A DNA stretch of 64,000 nt, from the NCBI RefSeq assembly GCF_001898575.1, contig NZ_MKUD01000070.1:62001-126000 (forward strand). The letters are read 5' to 3'. The notes beneath the pieces were generated by a model. The model saw nothing but the letters and a program-made list of their open reading frames with translations. It did no database searches and had not been told where the DNA came from. Positions 44,072 to 52,753 of this stretch are shown one piece after another. Position numbers and translations under genes: made by a program. Origin of the DNA: Spirosoma sp. 48-14. GTDB lineage: Bacteria > Bacteroidota > Bacteroidia > Cytophagales > Spirosomataceae. Numbering within the stretch: the first letter of the stretch is position 1; every line of letters begins with the position of its first letter.

Positions 44072-47000
44072 TTAGTTCTGAGTTTGAACCGAAGCTGTAG
44101 CATTATCAAATGTTAAGCGAGCGTTTGTACCAAACTGAATACGTTTGGCCTTAGCATTCGGAATGGTTATAGTAACCGTATGCCCATCCTGGATTTGGAC
44201 GAGATCGCATAACGTGGGCACCCTACCACAACTCCAGGTGGAGGCCGATGACCACAAACCCGATGCTAAGCTCTGACAGGGACCCCTGGAAATGATAATA
44301 TCATCAATCCGCAACTCATCCCGAGCATTGCTGCCCACCCCCGTCCAATAGTACTGCCACAACAACTGAACATAGGGCTTGTTCAACACAGTGGCTGGCA
44401 GAGCCACCGGACCCAGTACCTGACTATCGCCCGCTGTGGCACTACGCACATACTCGACAGGGTTGTTCTGACTGTCGAGCACATCGGTGAAGGGCCCTGA
44501 GTCGCCCACCCGGTAGCGGAGCCGGATGCGGTATTGCTTCACATTGGGTGTGACCGTACCAGCCGTCCACTGAACATAGGCTTCGTTGAGACCACTGGTT
44601 CGGATGGCCAGCAGGGCTCCCCCCAGGGTGGAGGCCACGTAGCCCGGATTGGTGTTGTTGTTGCCGGTGTTGATGAAGGAGAAACCGTTCTGATTGAGTC
44701 CGTTGATTCGGGTACGGCTGGTAAAGTTGTAGGCGCCAGTGACGGTGTTTGAGATGGTGGCCGATAGCGTGGGGTCTTCCTGATTCATAGAGACGAAGAC
44801 CATGTTGGGAGGGTAGCTACCCGCTGGTGCGGAGTCGGGCCACTGGTCGAGCTGGTAGTCGCAGGTGGCCAGTGAGTAGGCGGCCGGGAACGAGTTGAAG
44901 GATTCGTCCAGGTAGAATACGGCGGTCAGGCTACGGTTGGCGGATGGGTTGAAGGTGTATACGGAGTCGGTGGAGATAGAGGCATTTGCTTCTGTCCAGC
45001 GGACGAACTTGTATCCGGGTTTGGCTCTGGCAGTGATGGTGACAGCGTTACCCTGGAAGTAGATTCCGGTCCATGGGTAGGGTTGCTGGGGAACGCCTAC
45101 GGTAGAAGGCAGGATGGTGATGGAGTTGACGTTGACGTATCCTCGGGCGGTGTCGGAGACGTTAAGGGTCAGGCTGCGGTTAGCACTCAGGCTAAACTGC
45201 TGCCGTATATGCTTTCGGACGGAGTCGGGACGAACCTGTAGAAAATTCATCATATTTCCAATGTTCCCGAGCCAGCCGTTATAACTGGTGTTGGTTATCC
45301 ATCGATTAAAATGTTCGGCCATGTTAGGCTGGTACTGCTGTTGCATGGAAGTCAGTAATGCCGTCGTTCGGGTGGGGTTGAAGGTGGTGTTCAGCAAGTC
45401 GGCGTATCGGTTGATGAAGTAGGTTTTAAAGGCTGGTATAGCGAGCAACCGACGCAAATAAACTGTGAATTCAGCATCCTGGCCCGTATCCAGCGCCGTT
45501 GGGAATACGTTTTTCTGCGCATAATTCTGCCCGGTTATTCCCCAGTCGAGATCCCGAATCATCCATCGCCACCGGCCATCGTGCCCGCGAGGAGCATTGG
45601 GTTTATACTGGCTGGTCCGTTTACGCCACATCGAGAGGTTGTTGTGAGGCCAGTCGGTGTTGGCTACGAAAATCTCCGACATCTGATAATCGGCGAAGCT
45701 CTCCACATCCATCAGCGTTTGCACATAGGTGTAATTGACCGGACTGGTATTCATGAAGTAGTTCTTCAGAGCAGTAAAGCTGGTTAGATCACCCTCGGTA
45801 GGCTCGTAGGTATATTGCGATACTTCTACCATATCCACACTGTCGGTAGCTACGCCGTAGTTCTGGTTGATGTAGAATCGATCATAGCGTTCGTACAGAT
45901 TGGAGACACCCCAGTATTCGCCGTTGAAAAACAGGGCTACAGGTCGGTTCGACTGCGTGTCGAAGGGAAGATGCCGAACCATGGTTTGTCCGAACGCATC
46001 TACCAGTGTGGTGTAATCCCAATCGTTGCCGCCATTACGAAGCAGGAGCCGATCGTAAACGACGTTGGTTGGCCGATTGTCGAAGAAAGGATAGGCGAAT
46101 TCGCTACTTCCATACAGACGAACACTTTTACGAGGTACGGATCGGGAGCAGCCGCCATGTGTCCGTAAGCCTATTGGCTGGTTGATAACCGAAGCGTTAT
46201 TGATAAAGAATTCGACATTGCCTGGTCGTTCCCAATCATCACCTTCGTTAAAAAAATTGCCGGTTGTACAGAAGGAGGTGCCTGCGCTGGGATTGGCTGC
46301 CCGCCAGGTATCGAAGGTTTTTCCGGCTGTATAAATACCTGTGTTGTAGTCAAATAAATGCTTCTCATTTAGTGAAACCGAAACGACAGGAATGTTATAT
46401 CGGGGGAGCGAGGGGGAGACGAAGTAGGTTTGCGTGACGATATCACTGGGAATGGCATCGGGTTTATAGACCACCGCCCGCACCACCGTGCCCTTAAAAA
46501 CTGGACTTGTAGGGAAATAGGTGGGGGTATAATTCCAGGTCGATGACTTGACGGATAATTTATTCGGTGAGCTGGTTTGGTCAGTAATGGCTATCGTTGT
46601 CGAATAGGGGAAAGTTTGATAAGAGCCTGTCAGGAGCGGACCAGAGGGTTGACCTGGTTGTTCGGTATATCTGTTTTTATACGTATACGTAACGGAGTTG
46701 GGATTGGTAGGATCGGGGTCGGAGCCATCCAGCGTATAGTAAATGGTTGCCGTTGGATCGGATGCACTCAGTGCCAGATTGAAACCCGTCGAATAAAAGC
46801 CTCCAGCCTGCGAAAATGTCGGCCCTGCCAGCCATGCTGTATATCCGGTTTTTCCATTATTCGATGCCTTTGGCGTGCTGTTGGCTTTCTGAAAATAGAC
46901 CCAGCTGGCACTGCCGTTGGGCTGGCGACCCCAGGATATATCGGCCCGCTGGGGTCCGAAACGCAGCGTATCCACCACTGTGGTGCCATCCGGTTGATAC

Positions 47001-47356
47001 AAGCCCAATTGCTCCCCACTGGCCGACAGGCTGAAACCAATGTGATCGGCTCCCCGGTTGGTCTGCCCGCTGGCCCATACCAGCAGAAAACCGTTGGCGG
47101 GAATAATCGTTTTGGTGGATCCGGAAACGAACTGGTATTTGGTGGGATTAGTCAGGTTGTCGGTGATGAAATAACCGGCGATGTTGACTGAGAAGGAGTT
47201 AGGGTTATAGATTTCGAACCAGTCTTCAAAGGCCCCGGTCTGGTCGGCGAGGGTCGTTTGGTTGGAGGCCATCAACTCATTGATATAAAGTTGCTGGCTG
47301 CGTGCAGAGAAGTTAATGCACAGAAAAAAGATGGTGAGGGCAGTAATTGTTTTCAT
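44072..47356 (-). CDS. Secreted CotH-kinase-like protein with lamin-tail domain
   Basis: The 1094-residue protein has a signal peptide (MKTITALTIFFLCINFSARSQ). Domains in order are a lamin-tail domain (about 22-170; LYINELMASNQTTLADQTGA), a chitobiase-like beta-sandwich (about 185-300; ATIYYTLDGSDPDPTNPNS) and a CotH-type kinase-fold domain (about 310-690). The CotH part shows GSSEFAYPFF, LRNGGNDWDYT, GEYWGVSNLYERYD and WRWMIRDLDWG. An InlB-B-like repeat follows (about 725-820; AKPGYKFVRWTE). A jelly-roll region and a G8-like end (LWSSASTWSCGRVPTLCDLV) complete it. CotH proteins phosphorylate spore coat proteins in Bacillus; secreted bacterial forms like this are of unknown target. I see no clear type IX sorting domain at the end. 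Confidence 0.9.
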   Translation of the reverse strand: MKTITALTIFFLCINFSARSQQLYINELMASNQTTLADQTGAFEDWFEIYNPNSFSVNIAGYFITDNLTNPTKYQFVSGSTKTIIPANGFLLVWASGQTNRGADHIGFSLSASGEQLGLYQPDGTTVVDTLRFGPQRADISWGRQPNGSASWVYFQKANSTPKASNNGKTGYTAWLAGPTFSQAGGFYSTGFNLALSASDPTATIYYTLDGSDPDPTNPNSVTYTYKNRYTEQPGQPSGPLLTGSYQTFPYSTTIAITDQTSSPNKLSVKSSTWNYTPTYFPTSPVFKGTVVRAVVYKPDAIPSDIVTQTYFVSPSLPRYNIPVVSVSLNEKHLFDYNTGIYTAGKTFDTWRAANPSAGTSFCTTGNFFNEGDDWERPGNVEFFINNASVINQPIGLRTHGGCSRSVPRKSVRLYGSSEFAYPFFDNRPTNVVYDRLLLRNGGNDWDYTTLVDAFGQTMVRHLPFDTQSNRPVALFFNGEYWGVSNLYERYDRFYINQNYGVATDSVDMVEVSQYTYEPTEGDLTSFTALKNYFMNTSPVNYTYVQTLMDVESFADYQMSEIFVANTDWPHNNLSMWRKRTSQYKPNAPRGHDGRWRWMIRDLDWGITGQNYAQKNVFPTALDTGQDAEFTVYLRRLLAIPAFKTYFINRYADLLNTTFNPTRTTALLTSMQQQYQPNMAEHFNRWITNTSYNGWLGNIGNMMNFLQVRPDSVRKHIRQQFSLSANRSLTLNVSDTARGYVNVNSITILPSTVGVPQQPYPWTGIYFQGNAVTITARAKPGYKFVRWTEANASISTDSVYTFNPSANRSLTAVFYLDESFNSFPAAYSLATCDYQLDQWPDSAPAGSYPPNMVFVSMNQEDPTLSATISNTVTGAYNFTSRTRINGLNQNGFSFINTGNNNTNPGYVASTLGGALLAIRTSGLNEAYVQWTAGTVTPNVKQYRIRLRYRVGDSGPFTDVLDSQNNPVEYVRSATAGDSQVLGPVALPATVLNKPYVQLLWQYYWTGVGSNARDELRIDDIIISRGPCQSLASGLWSSASTWSCGRVPTLCDLVQIQDGHTVTITIPNAKAKRIQFGTNARLTFDNATASVQTQN

Positions 47357-48466: not shown

Positions 48467-48768
48467 AAACGAGACAACGTCTGCCAGTAAAAAAAGCAAT
48501 GAAGAACAATAGTTTGTTCATATGTGATAAGGCAGAAGTCGGGCGTACTTACTGCTACTGGTGAAGTTGGGCATGTCCAGGCGATACGATGGTGGTGTAT
48601 AATCTCAATGGGAAGCTGACTGTAAAGAGCCAAATAGAGGAAAATAGTTGAATTGCCAGGATACTATTGCGTGAAATGCCTCATTTGTAATTTATTATAG
48701 GGGATATGTACTAATTTATTTGAAAAAATTATACCTTGGTCGGTATTCCACTACAGGACTGTAACTAT
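48467..48768. other. Divergent promoter region of the terpenoid-like cluster
   Basis: About 300 bases with no gene separate the bicupin and the FAD enzyme. The part nearest the plus-strand gene is strongly A/T-rich (48680-48735), as expected for a promoter. I cannot fix the exact -33/-7 boxes. Confidence 0.4.
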
Positions 48769-50673
48769 ATGAAGGTCATCATATTGGGGGGAGGGGTAGC
48801 TGGTATGAGTGCAGCCCACGAATTGATCGAACGTGGGTTTTCTGTCGATATTTATGAGAAAAAACCGTATTACATGGGCGGTAAAGCCCGCAGTGTAAAC
48901 GTACCGGGTTCGTCTCCAGATGATCCTGATGGCCAACATTCAACGGAGCCTGGCGCCGATGCCCAGGCGTTACCTGGCGAACATGGCTTTCGTTTTTTTC
49001 CGGGTTTCTATCGGCATATTACCGATACCATGAAACGAATCCCTTATACAGCACCAGACGGGAAGAAAAACGCCCAGGGTGTGTATGATAATCTGGTCGA
49101 TGTGACACGGGTGGGTATTTTGCGAAATGGGAAAAAGCCGATCATCACCATCGTTAGTTTTCCGAAGTCCCTGGCCGATTTGAAAGCGGCTCTGGAAGTA
49201 CTACATACACACGATACGGGGCTGCTACCAGGCGAAGCGCACTTTTTTGCTACGAAAGTCTGGCAATTGATGACTTCCTGCCAGCGTCGGCGTGATATGG
49301 AGTATGAAAAAGTTGGCTGGTGGCAGTATATGGAAGCTGATGGGCACAGCGAGGCTTATCGGCACCTGTTGGTAGAAGGGTTAACACGGACACTGGTGGC
49401 GGCTAATGCCAAATTTGCCAGTACCAAAACAGGGGGGGATATTTTTATTCAGCTACTGTTCAATATCGCCAATCCTGGGATGCATACCGACCGGGTATTG
49501 AATGGCCCTACGAGCGAAAAGTGGCTAAAGCCCTGGGAAGACTATCTGACCGCTAAAGGAGTACGGTTTTTCAAAAGTGCGCTGGTGCAGCGGGTAAACT
49601 GCGTGAATGGAAGCGTTCAGGCGGTCGATATTCAGAATTGGGAGAAGGGGGCCCCCTACGATCCCCCTGCCCAAGGAGATTATTACGTGCTGGCTACGCC
49701 CGTTGAGGTGGCAGCCGCCGTACTACCCGACGAACTAAAGCAAAGTATCGGTAGTCTGCAATACCTGGATGATCTGGCGGCCGATGTAGCCTGGATGAAT
49801 GGCATTCAGTTTTACCTGAATCAGGTGATTGACGTTGTGCATGGGCACTGTATCTATGTCGATAGCGAATGGGCACTGACATCCATCTCACAGCTTCCTT
49901 TCTGGGACGATTATGATATCAGCAAGCGCGGCAACCGTCGGGTAAAAACTATTCTATCTGTCGATATATCGGACTGGCTTACAGATAGTCCCGACCTGCC
50001 GGGGTTGCCAGCCATGAAGGCCAAAGATTGCCAAACCTTTGATGAGATTGCCGACCGGGTGTGGGCGCAGTTGAAGCGTAGTTTGAACGTCGATGGCACC
50101 ATTGTACTCAGCGATGACATGAAAGAAGGGGCTTTTCGCGAGAACGACATGGTATACCGGGGGTACTTTCTCGATCACTCCCTGAACGAGCAGGCGCCAC
50201 CTAGTAAACGGGATCCGATGGCTTCGGTGGTCGGGCAGAAAGGGCAGAAGGGCGATGTGCTGGTCAACCACGAGCCACTGCTGGTCAATACCGTAAATAG
50301 TTGGTTTAAGCGACCCAGTGCCTATATACCGGGTTTGTCGAATCTCTTTCTGGCTTCGGACTATGTGCGCACCAATACTGATCTGGCTACGATGGAAGGA
50401 GCCAATGAAGCAGCCCGACGGGCGGTCAACAGCATTATTGATGTGTCGGGAGTCGATGCTCCGCTCTGCTCGGTCTGGGATTTACACGAGCCCGTCTTTT
50501 TTGCCCCTTTCAAGTGGTACGACAACTGGCGTTTTGGGCGAGGGTTACCTTATAAAAAGCCTCCCGGCTGGTTCGATGCCCTGATGGTGGTCTGGGGTGT
50601 TATGTATGCCATTGGATTTCTGCTATATACTGCCTGGACGGCCCTTACTACCTGGACCCAGAAAATGCGATGA
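48769..50673 (+). CDS. Phytoene-desaturase/hydroxysqualene-dehydroxylase-like FAD enzyme with C-terminal TM
   Basis: The 634-residue protein opens with a perfect FAD motif (VIILGGGVAGMSAAHELIER, Gly7/9/12, ribose-binding Glu30) and the GGKARS loop (37-42) of the amine-oxidase/carotenoid-desaturase superfamily. GEHGFRFFPGFYRHITDTM (70-88) recalls a subgroup near hydroxysqualene dehydroxylases and carotene desaturases. Near the end it has LFLASDYVRTNTDLATMEGA, the usual FAD-binding close, and then, unusually, a transmembrane helix (LMVVWGVMYAIGFLLYTAW). I chose the ATG at 48769 directly before the motif. Its last codons overlap the next gene (ATGA), so translation is coupled to the cyclase-like protein. 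The substrate is probably an isoprenoid (inference). Confidence 0.82.
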   Translation: MKVIILGGGVAGMSAAHELIERGFSVDIYEKKPYYMGGKARSVNVPGSSPDDPDGQHSTEPGADAQALPGEHGFRFFPGFYRHITDTMKRIPYTAPDGKKNAQGVYDNLVDVTRVGILRNGKKPIITIVSFPKSLADLKAALEVLHTHDTGLLPGEAHFFATKVWQLMTSCQRRRDMEYEKVGWWQYMEADGHSEAYRHLLVEGLTRTLVAANAKFASTKTGGDIFIQLLFNIANPGMHTDRVLNGPTSEKWLKPWEDYLTAKGVRFFKSALVQRVNCVNGSVQAVDIQNWEKGAPYDPPAQGDYYVLATPVEVAAAVLPDELKQSIGSLQYLDDLAADVAWMNGIQFYLNQVIDVVHGHCIYVDSEWALTSISQLPFWDDYDISKRGNRRVKTILSVDISDWLTDSPDLPGLPAMKAKDCQTFDEIADRVWAQLKRSLNVDGTIVLSDDMKEGAFRENDMVYRGYFLDHSLNEQAPPSKRDPMASVVGQKGQKGDVLVNHEPLLVNTVNSWFKRPSAYIPGLSNLFLASDYVRTNTDLATMEGANEAARRAVNSIIDVSGVDAPLCSVWDLHEPVFFAPFKWYDNWRFGRGLPYKKPPGWFDALMVVWGVMYAIGFLLYTAWTALTTWTQKMR

Positions 50674-51314
50674 TAAACCAACACGATTATACGAACCTTG
50701 AACTCATTACGTTCGGAGTCGGCTGCTTTCTGTGGGTGATGGTTTACTTCTTCACGCTACGAAGCATTCGGCTGCATCGGTTTGTCGAAATTCCCATTGT
50801 GACAATATGGGGGAATATTGTGTGGGAGTTTCTATGGAGCTGGGTCTTCGTGCCGGATATGGGTAGCCTGTTTGTGTGGGGCTATCGGGTCTGGTTTTTT
50901 ATGGACTGCTTTATTGTGTATGGAGCCATCCGGTTTGGGTATAAGCAGATCAGTGTCCCGTTGTTTCGGCAGCACGTTGGTCTTTTGACGGTGTTGGGTA
51001 TACTGGGCTGGCTGCCCTTGCTCTATTATTACATTGCCGTGTACGATGCACCCCTGAGTCATATGGGGGCTTACTCCGGCTATTTACTGAATATACTGAT
51101 TTCGGCTTTATACATTACGCAGGCTTTGCGGCTCAATAACTGGGCGTTGTTCTCATACCCGGCGGCCTGGTGTAAAGGGGTCGGTACACTCCTGATTTCC
51201 ATATTTTGTTTCCTGCATTTCACCGATCCGTTCCTATTATCGATGTGCGTTATTACGGCTATCCTTGATGGTGCCTATATTGTTCTCTTCACCAGGCAGT
51301 CTACTCATGCCTAA
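50670..51314 (+). CDS. Pyr4-like integral membrane terpene cyclase candidate
   Basis: The 214-residue protein has about seven transmembrane helices. The second carries NIVWEFLWSWVF with Glu53, and the last ILDGAYIVLF with Asp200. As I recall, fungal Pyr4/PaxB-type membrane cyclases have the same size (about 240), seven helices and two essential acids: one in a W-E motif of the second helix and one in the last helix. The match of topology and both acids, with similar spacing (147 versus about 155), supports the call, but overall identity cannot be judged without a search. The start codon overlaps the FAD enzyme stop by ATGA, and the kinase follows 5 nt after its stop. Confidence 0.55.
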   Translation: MINQHDYTNLELITFGVGCFLWVMVYFFTLRSIRLHRFVEIPIVTIWGNIVWEFLWSWVFVPDMGSLFVWGYRVWFFMDCFIVYGAIRFGYKQISVPLFRQHVGLLTVLGILGWLPLLYYYIAVYDAPLSHMGAYSGYLLNILISALYITQALRLNNWALFSYPAAWCKGVGTLLISIFCFLHFTDPFLLSMCVITAILDGAYIVLFTRQSTHA

Positions 51315-51319
51315 CCGTT

Positions 51320-52753
51320 ATGAGCAAACTAGTACACTGGAAAGATAACTTTTGGAAAGGGTTTGGTTTTGACGGACTGGAGCCTGAAGAATTTAAAAAG
51401 CGGACATCTGCCGTTTTGCTGGCTATTTTTACGATAGGGGCTGGGTTGTGTTATTCGTTGATCTACTCTTTTTTAGGTTTCTCGTCGCTGGCTTTTGTTG
51501 TTTATACCTACGTGCCTGTATGCCTGCTGAACATCCTGTACCTGCGTTTTTCGCACCAGTATCAGGTTTTCGGCGGTATTCAGCTTGTGTTAATTTTTAT
51601 ATTTCCTCTAGCCGCCCAATTGGCTATCGGCAGCTATGTCGATGCCAGCGCCGTTGTTCTGTCAACGTTTCTGGCACCCGCAGGGGCACTCATTTATGCA
51701 TCACGCCGGATTGCGCGTCTCAGCTTTTATTTGTTCATGGTGGCCATTGTGGGCGTAACCTGTTGGGAGTATTTTTTCGGGCGACCCGAAATGGTACTAC
51801 CTCGCGGTATTGTCCTTATCTTCTTTTCCTTTAATCTGATTATTGTCTGCGCCATCATTTTCTTCCTGCTCGAAAGTTTTCTCCAAAAACAGGATGAACT
51901 TCGTGCCGAATTGCGCCAGTCGCTTCATACCCTGAAAATCACGCAGAACCAATTAATTCAGTCCGAGAAACTGGCCAGCCTGGGCGAGCTGACTGCGGGT
52001 ATTGCGCACGAAATTCAGAATCCACTGAACTTCGTCAATAACTTTTCAGAAGTAAGTACCGAACTTATAGAGGAGCTAAAAGAAGAGGCCCAGGCCGGAC
52101 GTATCGACGATGTGCTGGCTCTCGCCAACGATCTGGATCAAAATCTTAAAAAGGTTATCTTTCATGGTAAACGGGCCGGTTCCATTGTGCGAGGAATGCT
52201 GGAGCACAGCCGTTCTGGAACGGGCGAGCGGCAACTGACTCAACTGAATGACCTGGCCGATGAATACCTGCGGCTGGCGTATCAGGGGCAACGGGCCAAC
52301 GACAAAACCTTCAACTGTACGCTTCAAACCGACTTTGCGTCAGGGCTTCCTCAACTGAATCTGGTGCCGCAGGATATAGGTCGGGTCTTGCTGAACCTTT
52401 TTCAGAATGCCTTGTATGCGGTACGGCAACGGCAGAAACAGGAACCTGTTGGTTATACGCCAACCGTGTGGATCAGTACTAGTCAGCAACAGGGACAGGT
52501 CGTTGTCAGCGTAAAAGACAATGGAACAGGTATGTCGGAAGTGGTCAGGGGTAAGATTTTTCAGCCGTTTTTTACGACCAAACCCACGGGTGAAGGAACA
52601 GGATTGGGCCTGAGTCTGAGCTATGACATCGTAACGAAAGGGCACAATGGCACACTGGACGTGGAGAGTCGGGCAGGCGAAGGGAGTAAATTTGTCATGA
52701 AACTTCCTCTTGTATATAACGGACCCAGTTCGGCTAAACCAAAAACAACGTAA
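51320..52753 (+). CDS. Six-helix membrane histidine kinase, no adjacent regulator
   Basis: The 477-residue protein has about six hydrophobic segments (30-185), a short coiled coil (about 190-220) and a kinase core with phospho-acceptor His230 (GELTAGIAHEIQNPLNF), N-box (LLNLFQNALYAVRQ), G1 (VKDNGTGMS) and G2 (GEGTGLGLSLSYDIV) boxes. It starts 5 nt after the cyclase-like gene, so it is in the same transcript. No response regulator is encoded nearby; it may work with a single-domain receiver or a distant one. Its place in a biosynthetic operon suggests it senses the product or membrane state (inference). Confidence 0.9.
   Translation: MSKLVHWKDNFWKGFGFDGLEPEEFKKRTSAVLLAIFTIGAGLCYSLIYSFLGFSSLAFVVYTYVPVCLLNILYLRFSHQYQVFGGIQLVLIFIFPLAAQLAIGSYVDASAVVLSTFLAPAGALIYASRRIARLSFYLFMVAIVGVTCWEYFFGRPEMVLPRGIVLIFFSFNLIIVCAIIFFLLESFLQKQDELRAELRQSLHTLKITQNQLIQSEKLASLGELTAGIAHEIQNPLNFVNNFSEVSTELIEELKEEAQAGRIDDVLALANDLDQNLKKVIFHGKRAGSIVRGMLEHSRSGTGERQLTQLNDLADEYLRLAYQGQRANDKTFNCTLQTDFASGLPQLNLVPQDIGRVLLNLFQNALYAVRQRQKQEPVGYTPTVWISTSQQQGQVVVSVKDNGTGMSEVVRGKIFQPFFTTKPTGEGTGLGLSLSYDIVTKGHNGTLDVESRAGEGSKFVMKLPLVYNGPSSAKPKTT

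Follow-up and report, generated by a model that had tools for sequence, protein, structure and literature searches.

What does a terpene cyclase do when the gene that follows it encodes a membrane sensor? The question was raised by a window of 64,000 nucleotides (the whole stretch of DNA analysed) from Spirosoma sp. 48-14 (contig NZ_MKUD01000070.1, positions 62,001 to 126,000), in which genes for an isoprenoid-type oxidoreductase dependent on flavin adenine dinucleotide (FAD) and for a Pyr4-like cyclase run directly into a gene for a histidine kinase. The order of enzyme, cyclase and transducer is conserved across genera, and the gene arrangement suggests that these bacteria make and sense a terpenoid signal of their own.

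The operon and its products

The first gene encodes a FAD-dependent oxidoreductase of 634 residues (48769–50673, + strand), identified from its open reading frame (ORF), Pfam and NCBIfam. The ORF starts with ATG at 48769 and stops at 50671–50673; the frame is open from an alternative TTG start, at 48736, as well. Its TGA and the ATG of the cyclase gene (50670–51314) overlap by four bases, sharing the ATGA at 50670–50673, as an earlier, sequence-only reading of this DNA had observed. That reading described both genes correctly, while its coordinates omitted the third gene of the operon, at 51320–52753; this gene starts five bases past the cyclase stop, and all three genes lie on the + strand. 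The three genes would be co-transcribed. A promoter and terminator scan was uninformative, with three promoter-like sites against 5.9 expected and eight terminator-like sites against 5.5. That the three genes constitute a signalling operon is well supported.

The second product, of 214 residues, scored 58.9 bits on PF25129 (Pyr4-TMTC), whose cut-off is 27 (E = 7.8e-16), and its closest named relative was the cyclase of Spirosoma panaciterrae, at 90% identity. An AlphaFold model built from an alignment of 35 sequences had a mean predicted local distance difference test score (pLDDT) of 95.4 and a predicted template modelling score (pTM) of 0.89. It contained seven helices (9–36, 43–59, 66–93, 103–129, 134–155, 163–183 and 187–213), with Glu53 (codon 50826–50828, + strand) in the second and Asp200 (codon 51267–51269, + strand) in the last. 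The earlier placement of about seven transmembrane helices, of Glu53 in NIVWEF and of Asp200 in ILDGAY thus agreed with sequence and predicted structure alike, and its guess at a Pyr4-type cyclase was borne out by the Pfam profile search, the seven helices and the catalytic residues. Loss of the two acids among homologues had been named beforehand as grounds for abandoning that guess; in an alignment of 41 sequences, which included the window protein and several near copies, 38 rows had Glu53 and the other three Ala; 37 had Asp200, two Asn and one Gln at that position, which the remaining row does not reach. Tyr26, Pro42 and Asp79 were invariant.

Mutational data exist for the bacterial cyclase DmtA1. 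In that study, the family-conserved residues W29, Y33, N56, W59, E60, D214 and Y217 were mutated, and most mutants lost complementation or had it much reduced; it was partial with D214N and Y217F, and D214N still gave product (PMC6173783). E133 and C58 were mutated too, while D94, also required, was called unique to DmtA1-3 (PMC6173783). The counterparts in the window protein, mapped by spacing, are W22, Y26, N49, W52 and E53 (offset -7) and D200 and Y203 (offset -14), so that Glu53 corresponds to E60 and Asp200 to D214. These were kept in 38, 41, 39, 40, 38, 37 and 33 of the 41 sequences respectively, Y203 being Phe in six. Judged from these residues, the protein would cyclise an isoprenoid chain. 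Departures were also seen in the family: the Pyr4-like proteins of loci L105, L106 and L110 have the catalytic Glu replaced by Ala and the Asp kept, possibly denoting other chemistry or no catalysis, and the Pyr4-like frame of genome G357 (L087/L111) is broken by two stop codons, an interruption not shared by the matches from the rest of its genus group.

The fold of the cyclase model came closest to SWEET transporters, cystinosin and the KDEL receptor (best Foldseek E = 3.3e-3, none at E 0.001). A sequence search of the PDB with the cyclase gave one match, at E = 0.44, and no convincing relative. A SWEET- or KDEL-receptor-like function was rejected, since the likeness is one of fold only and the catalytic residues are kept; the family match therefore stands. 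A confident match to a non-cyclase family, the other result that would have told against the sequence-only reading, was not found.

The FAD enzyme matched Amino_oxidase (PF01593, E = 1.8e-10). Its best NCBIfam model was HpnE (TIGR03467), with 76.2 bits against a cut-off of 283.05, and carotenoid desaturase was also among the best, far below its cut-off; HpnE was rejected as a name because this equivalog cut-off was missed by so much. Homologues at about 37–44% identity were found in 16 plasmid records, of which 11 were read and 10 had gene tables. A polyprenyl synthetase gene adjoins the FAD homologue in six of these 10 annotated loci, which are related within each genus and so amount to fewer independent cases; it is on the same strand in two Ruegeria, and on the opposite strand with a tail-to-tail overlap in four Streptomyces. 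An MpaB-type (DUF2236) gene lies within about 3 kb of the FAD homologue in all four Streptomyces loci, and adenylate/guanylate cyclase and encapsulin genes lie upstream in both Ruegeria loci. The polyprenyl synthetase neighbours are a separate clue to what the FAD enzyme acts on and, together with the Amino_oxidase family and the sub-cut-off NCBIfam scores, they uphold the earlier description of the enzyme as isoprenoid-type. As a side observation, a single run on the Ruegeria plasmids (L143:1021-9190 and L154) comprises adenylate/guanylate cyclase, encapsulin, a DUF3237 protein, the FAD homologue and polyprenyl synthetase, and may represent an encapsulated isoprenoid pathway linked to cyclic nucleotides.

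Hydropathy predicted a C-terminal membrane helix in the FAD enzyme (50566–50637, + strand; residues 611–634 counted from 48736). The sequence-only reading had proposed that this helix keeps both partners on a membrane substrate. The helix is present, and the tethering idea is weakened because it is variable among homologues, being absent from five of the 17 FAD sequences checked. Defence against phage was considered and rejected: when four proteins were scanned with PADLOC, the sole match was a weak one, of the FAD enzyme to a desaturase.

The third product is a membrane sensor histidine kinase of 477 residues (51320–52753, + strand). Its core (51980–52711, + strand) consists of HisKA (residues 221–301, E = 3.3e-6) and HATPase_c (residues 351–464, E = 6.9e-22), and the translation contains GIAHEIQNPLN, which we take to be the motif holding the histidine. 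Ahead of HisKA, hydropathy identified six membrane segments (sensor domain, 51320–51904, + strand), and six helices of membrane length were present in the model. The best PDB match of this AlphaFold sensor model (pLDDT 74) in Foldseek was 7yzk_A, the membrane domain of the adenylyl cyclase Rv1625c/Cya (E = 0.046, probability 1.00, template modelling score 0.54), with AC9 lower among the matches. Six-helix membrane domains of this sort are regarded as orphan or putative receptors (PMC4821796, PMC9433096). The Rv1625c structure paper treats the membrane domain as a putative receptor (PMC9433096), and when CqsS was put in the place of the Rv1625c membrane domain, the cyclase responded to the lipophilic CAI-1 (PMC4821796).

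Isoprenoid chains are likely to be available in the cell: the genome has one SQS_PSY (phytoene-synthase-type) gene, beside a desaturase-like gene named by eye. Among the 36 predicted window proteins scanned with Pfam (shorter ORFs left out), there was no prenyltransferase, polyprenyl synthase or P450. Neighbours of that kind are usual for Pyr4-like cyclases without defining them. The meroterpenoid pathway envisaged by the sequence-only reading was consequently not supported in that form, the conserved partner being a sensor kinase or cyclase instead; this lowers the reading as a natural-product pathway, and not the assignment of the cyclase to its family. The product could still be a cyclised lipid, the other possibility raised in that reading.

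Gene runs and phylogeny among relatives

Among 150 genomes of the family, PF25129 was matched in 20 and exceeded its cut-off in 19; the twentieth, sub-cut-off match (G110) was a transporter of the MFS family and was excluded. A signal transducer occurs in the same gene run as the Pyr4-like gene in 15 of the 19 genomes (one, G033, placed from profile-match coordinates), belonging to nine genus groups; these genomes are related and not independent. HATPase_c was matched 118 times in the 8.68 Mb of the window's genome, or about once per 74 kb, and therefore chance would not be expected to give 15 of 19. Upstream of the Pyr4-like gene, the FAD enzyme is found in six genomes (G000, G089, G131, G149, G033 and G056) and an MPAB_Lcp oxygenase (PF09995) in nine (G018, G044, G019, G047, G049, G061, G108, G109 and G124), two of these oxygenases having been called by Pfam and the others by a custom profile. 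The cyclase and sensor genes are closely spaced, with gaps of -4 to +9 bases (window, L052, L055, L058, L061, L057 and L121).

The FAD enzyme was followed independently of the cyclase. Strong homologues (E < 1e-80) occur in 14 of the 150 genomes, all 14 with a six-helix kinase or cyclase beside them; between the two genes stands a Pyr4-like gene in six genomes, DUF6989 in five and neither in three. In the window, the Pyr4-like gene is followed by a six-helix kinase, and in L057, also after a FAD enzyme, by a six-helix SpoIIE phosphatase; in L069 the FAD enzyme is followed by DUF6989 and a six-helix adenylate cyclase; in L063 it is fused to DUF6989, with a kinase after; and in L064, L065 and L068 it directly precedes a six-helix kinase. 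In the MPAB form, the Pyr4-like protein comes next, and then either a kinase of the six-helix type or a kinase or cyclase of the 7TMR-DISM type. A membrane SpoIIE phosphatase with five hydropathy segments and no sensor-profile match follows in L121, and in L128 to L132 an MPAB protein directly precedes a 7TMR-DISM kinase, two of these proteins having DUF5995 by Pfam. In L056, L060, L064, L065, L072, L074, L075 and L137, the run continues with a response regulator and a response-regulator cyclase, neither of which follows in the window. The partner genes are interchangeable. The sensor, too, retains its input while its output differs: the window's type carries SpoIIE in place of the kinase in L057 (31% identical), and in a second six-helix type the output is either a kinase or an adenylate cyclase (L069, L102).

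DUF6989 lies beside or fused to the FAD enzyme in five of the six genomes that have it, a membrane domain occupying the place of the Pyr4-like protein (L069:8131-8811, L063:9300-11954). Its interpretation as a divergent Pyr4-like protein was rejected; a profile comparison gave a probability of 0.1%, and by sequence it is therefore an unrelated replacement. No paper on DUF6989 was found in the open-licence literature.

Other runs were noted. L128:2256-7286 and L129:2087-7165 encode very long MPAB_Lcp proteins with a 7TMR-DISM histidine kinase directly after, and the former also has caspase-like, GDSL lipase and DUF5995 domains (the Pfam scan covered L128, not L129); shorter MPAB proteins precede 7TMR-DISM kinases in L130 (with DUF5995), L131 and L132. 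In L077:7681-14479, a single run comprises an MpaB oxygenase, a Pyr4-like protein, a FAD enzyme of a second kind (726 residues) and a 7TMR-DISM adenylate cyclase, interrupted between the MpaB and Pyr4-like genes by a gene on the opposite strand; the second kind of FAD enzyme also adjoins the Pyr4-like gene in L136. In the window itself, 44072–47356 encodes a large protein in which CotH kinase and Lamin Tail domains occur; among the clustered loci, a relative occurs near the operon only in L052 and L059, the closest Spirosoma-type loci.

In a wider draw of 395 genomes from the phylum, 24 matched the Pyr4-like profile, the window's own included. The FAD enzyme was matched at E <= 1e-30 only in the window's own genome. 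Of the 23 further Pyr4-like matches, three (G438, G517 and G527) were not among the fetched regions, leaving 20 loci.

A tree was constructed for 38 Pyr4-like proteins, 37 from Bacteroidota and one from a Streptomyces plasmid. Six of the 41 Pyr4-like ORFs were left out: the near copies L059, L062, L067 and L113, together with L111 (a frame with stops, represented by a piece of 162 residues) and L118 (an over-long ORF). L053 and L104 fall outside the 41, their Pyr4-like genes having been missed by the ORF caller or the profile. A branch with 100/100 support separated a signalling side from the rest. In these two groups, which were drawn after the first tree was inspected, a transducer was in view for 22 of 23 proteins on the signalling side and for one of 15 on the other (L116, whose transducer has no membrane helix by hydropathy); the latter count becomes one of 17 if L111 and L118, which are without a transducer, belong to that side. 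The 23rd protein of the signalling side, L136, is on a 5 kb contig. When context labels alone were mapped (37 rows), three changes were required on the tree, against a mean of 11.6 in 500 shuffles, a test in which near copies favour clustering. Glu53 was present in all 23 proteins of the signalling side and Asp200 in 21, with Asn in two. Position 161 (window numbering) is Phe in 21 of the 23 and Gln in all 15 others, and could serve as a marker of the branch. Since the FAD-linked proteins form one clade within the signalling side and the MPAB-linked proteins are spread across it, the tree suggests that the MPAB oxygenase may be the older partner.

A proposed make-and-sense terpenoid operon, and the alternatives

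The three genes were interpreted as a make-and-sense signalling operon, in which the product of the enzyme pair is read by the kinase; a probability of roughly 0.5 was assigned to this reading. The FAD enzyme would oxidise or isomerise a membrane isoprenoid chain, the Pyr4-like protein would protonate and cyclise the chain through Glu53, and the six-helix domain of the kinase would bind the product within the bilayer and set kinase activity. In relatives, the place of the FAD enzyme is taken by an MpaB/Lcp-type oxygenase, and the output domain of the receptor is an adenylate cyclase or a SpoIIE phosphatase. An isoprenoid substrate, a product acting as ligand and its sensing are all presumed in this scheme, and the ligand might either be released as an autoinducer or retained in the membrane of its producer.

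Several observations weigh against it. No transducer was seen with the Pyr4-like gene in four of the 19 family genomes (G011, G022, G111 and, on a 5 kb contig, G014), as judged with custom profiles of 12 protein types and not Pfam of every neighbour. Among the 20 further phylum loci, the cyclase adjoins a transducer in only six (L102, L108, L116, L117, L119 and L121); none was seen in 13 of the 20, and in L104 the profile missed the Pyr4-like gene itself. FAD-kinase loci without an adjoining Pyr4-like gene occur in G018, G044 and G143, and four haloarchaeal FAD homologue loci had no context of this kind. The receptor is of the 7TMR-DISM type in L066, L067, L078, L077 and L137, and L108 has a cyclase of a different build, so no single receptor type serves all modules. 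The sensor-domain model is mediocre, at the pLDDT given above, and had no PDB match at E 0.001 in Foldseek. A profile of 18 six-helix domains gave 19 matches in the 150 genomes (E <= 1e-6), 18 of them inside these modules, from whose members the profile had itself been built. A narrower profile of eight rows for the window's sensor type, scored on at most 21 candidates per genome, recovered the six FAD-Pyr4 modules and missed the other module type; below these it ranked a six-helix kinase that stands by itself (G082:C12, E = 1.4e-18), then a G049 fragment at E = 0.005. The two sensor types were joined only by profile-profile comparison (96.7%, E = 4e-10). Sensor exclusivity is consequently good, not perfect. 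The free-standing kinase of G082 (L133:4440-7753) is accompanied by a response regulator and a pyridine-nucleotide-disulphide oxidoreductase, a flavoprotein again standing beside this sensor type.

Of the alternatives, the one that survives best, unlikely as it was judged, is an ordinary pathway for a cyclised isoprenoid with a regulator of its own, the kinase sensing some unrelated cue such as membrane state or a nutrient. Pyr4-like enzymes of other bacteria do make natural products (PMC13307353), and L103, which the tree places outside the signalling side, has a UbiA prenyltransferase gene adjoining its Pyr4-like gene, with no transducer seen. However, such a pathway would have to do without a prenyltransferase or polyprenyl synthase among the 36 scanned window proteins; moreover, the upstream enzyme varies, as does the output domain, without loss of the transducer, and the FAD-kinase pairs of G018, G044 and G143 have no adjoining cyclase.

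Improbable, and placed second, is the proposal that sensing falls to the membrane enzymes: a flavin or isoprenoid cofactor bound in the FAD/Pyr4-like pair would detect light, oxygen or redox state and contact the kinase directly, with no free product. The tight coupling of cyclase and sensor genes noted above, the fusion of FAD enzyme to the membrane protein DUF6989 in L063 and the SWEET/KDEL-receptor-like fold of the cyclase are all in keeping with this. Yet the kinase retains a complete six-helix domain, and the FAD enzyme can be replaced by an oxygenase of another family.

Third, and likewise improbable, is the conversion of external isoprenoids (plant terpenoids, polyisoprene or quinones) into an inducer through which the kinase activates catabolism or defence. 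Going by its name, the MPAB_Lcp family found in the sister modules takes in rubber oxygenases, and the names of the relatives seem to point to soil, plant or water habitats. Against this, no degradation pathway was noted in the gene runs, where a minority of the genes was scanned, and the residues kept are those of a cyclase, not a degrader. Chance or neutral clustering of the enzyme pair with abundant histidine kinases was already disfavoured and is very improbable: for all the 118 HATPase_c matches in the genome, the association is repeated across nine of the family's genus groups, extends to outputs other than kinases and coincides with the 100/100 split of the tree.

The make-and-sense reading can be extended beyond Spirosoma, more tentatively and at rather less than even odds, to a class of signalling modules in Bacteroidota, in which a home-made cyclic terpenoid from an isoprenoid oxidase (FAD enzyme or MpaB/Lcp oxygenase) and a Pyr4-like cyclase would be detected by a six-helix or 7TMR-DISM receptor with kinase, adenylate cyclase or SpoIIE output.

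Comparison with known systems

The characterised Pyr4-like cyclases (Pyr4, DmtA1, XiaE/XiaH and ZigF) resemble the window protein in Pfam family, in their seven helices and in the Glu of helix 2 and Asp of helix 7. Unlike them, the window protein has no prenyltransferase or polyprenyl synthase among its scanned neighbours and runs with a sensor kinase, and its branch is separate from other Bacteroidota sequences and from the one Streptomyces sequence. A survey of bacterial Pyr4-like proteins listed 1107 candidates and retained 264 for nearby terpenoid genes (PMC13307353); a filter of that kind may omit loci of the window's type. If the make-and-sense reading is true, a Pyr4-like branch dedicated to signalling would give the family a new role beyond natural-product pathways, and terpenoids would join the lipophilic signals.

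The FAD enzyme has its FAD-binding fold family in common with the hydroxysqualene dehydroxylase HpnE and with carotenoid desaturases, but it exceeds the HpnE model in length by about 200 residues, has different neighbours and scores 76 bits where 283 are required. The MpaB/Lcp oxygenases, which are heme enzymes and belong to another Pfam family, hold the upstream place of the FAD enzyme in nine family genomes and are absent from the window's operon.

The closest parallels in architecture are the CqsS receptors and Rv1625c, which combine a six-helix N-terminal membrane domain with a kinase or adenylate cyclase output, as the window module does. Were its product a ligand, the receptor would read it much as CqsS reads CAI-1; the Rv1625c fold match is weak, and the likeness to CqsS was drawn without sequence comparison. 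The wider class of modules, if real, would supply a candidate class of natural ligand for the six-helix receptors of membrane adenylyl cyclases, which are orphans, and a putative ligand synthase encoded beside its receptor makes the question of the six-helix-domain ligand testable. Among the matches listed in the open-licence literature, no paper was found that joins a terpene cyclase, MpaB or an isoprenoid to a sensor operon. Synthase-receptor pairs are known, CqsA and CqsS being one such pairing of enzyme and receptor genes, and the window module likewise has its enzyme genes next to the gene for its receptor. It differs in pairing an isoprenoid-type FAD enzyme with a terpene cyclase; for a pair of this kind, both the enzymes and the presumed class of signal would be new.

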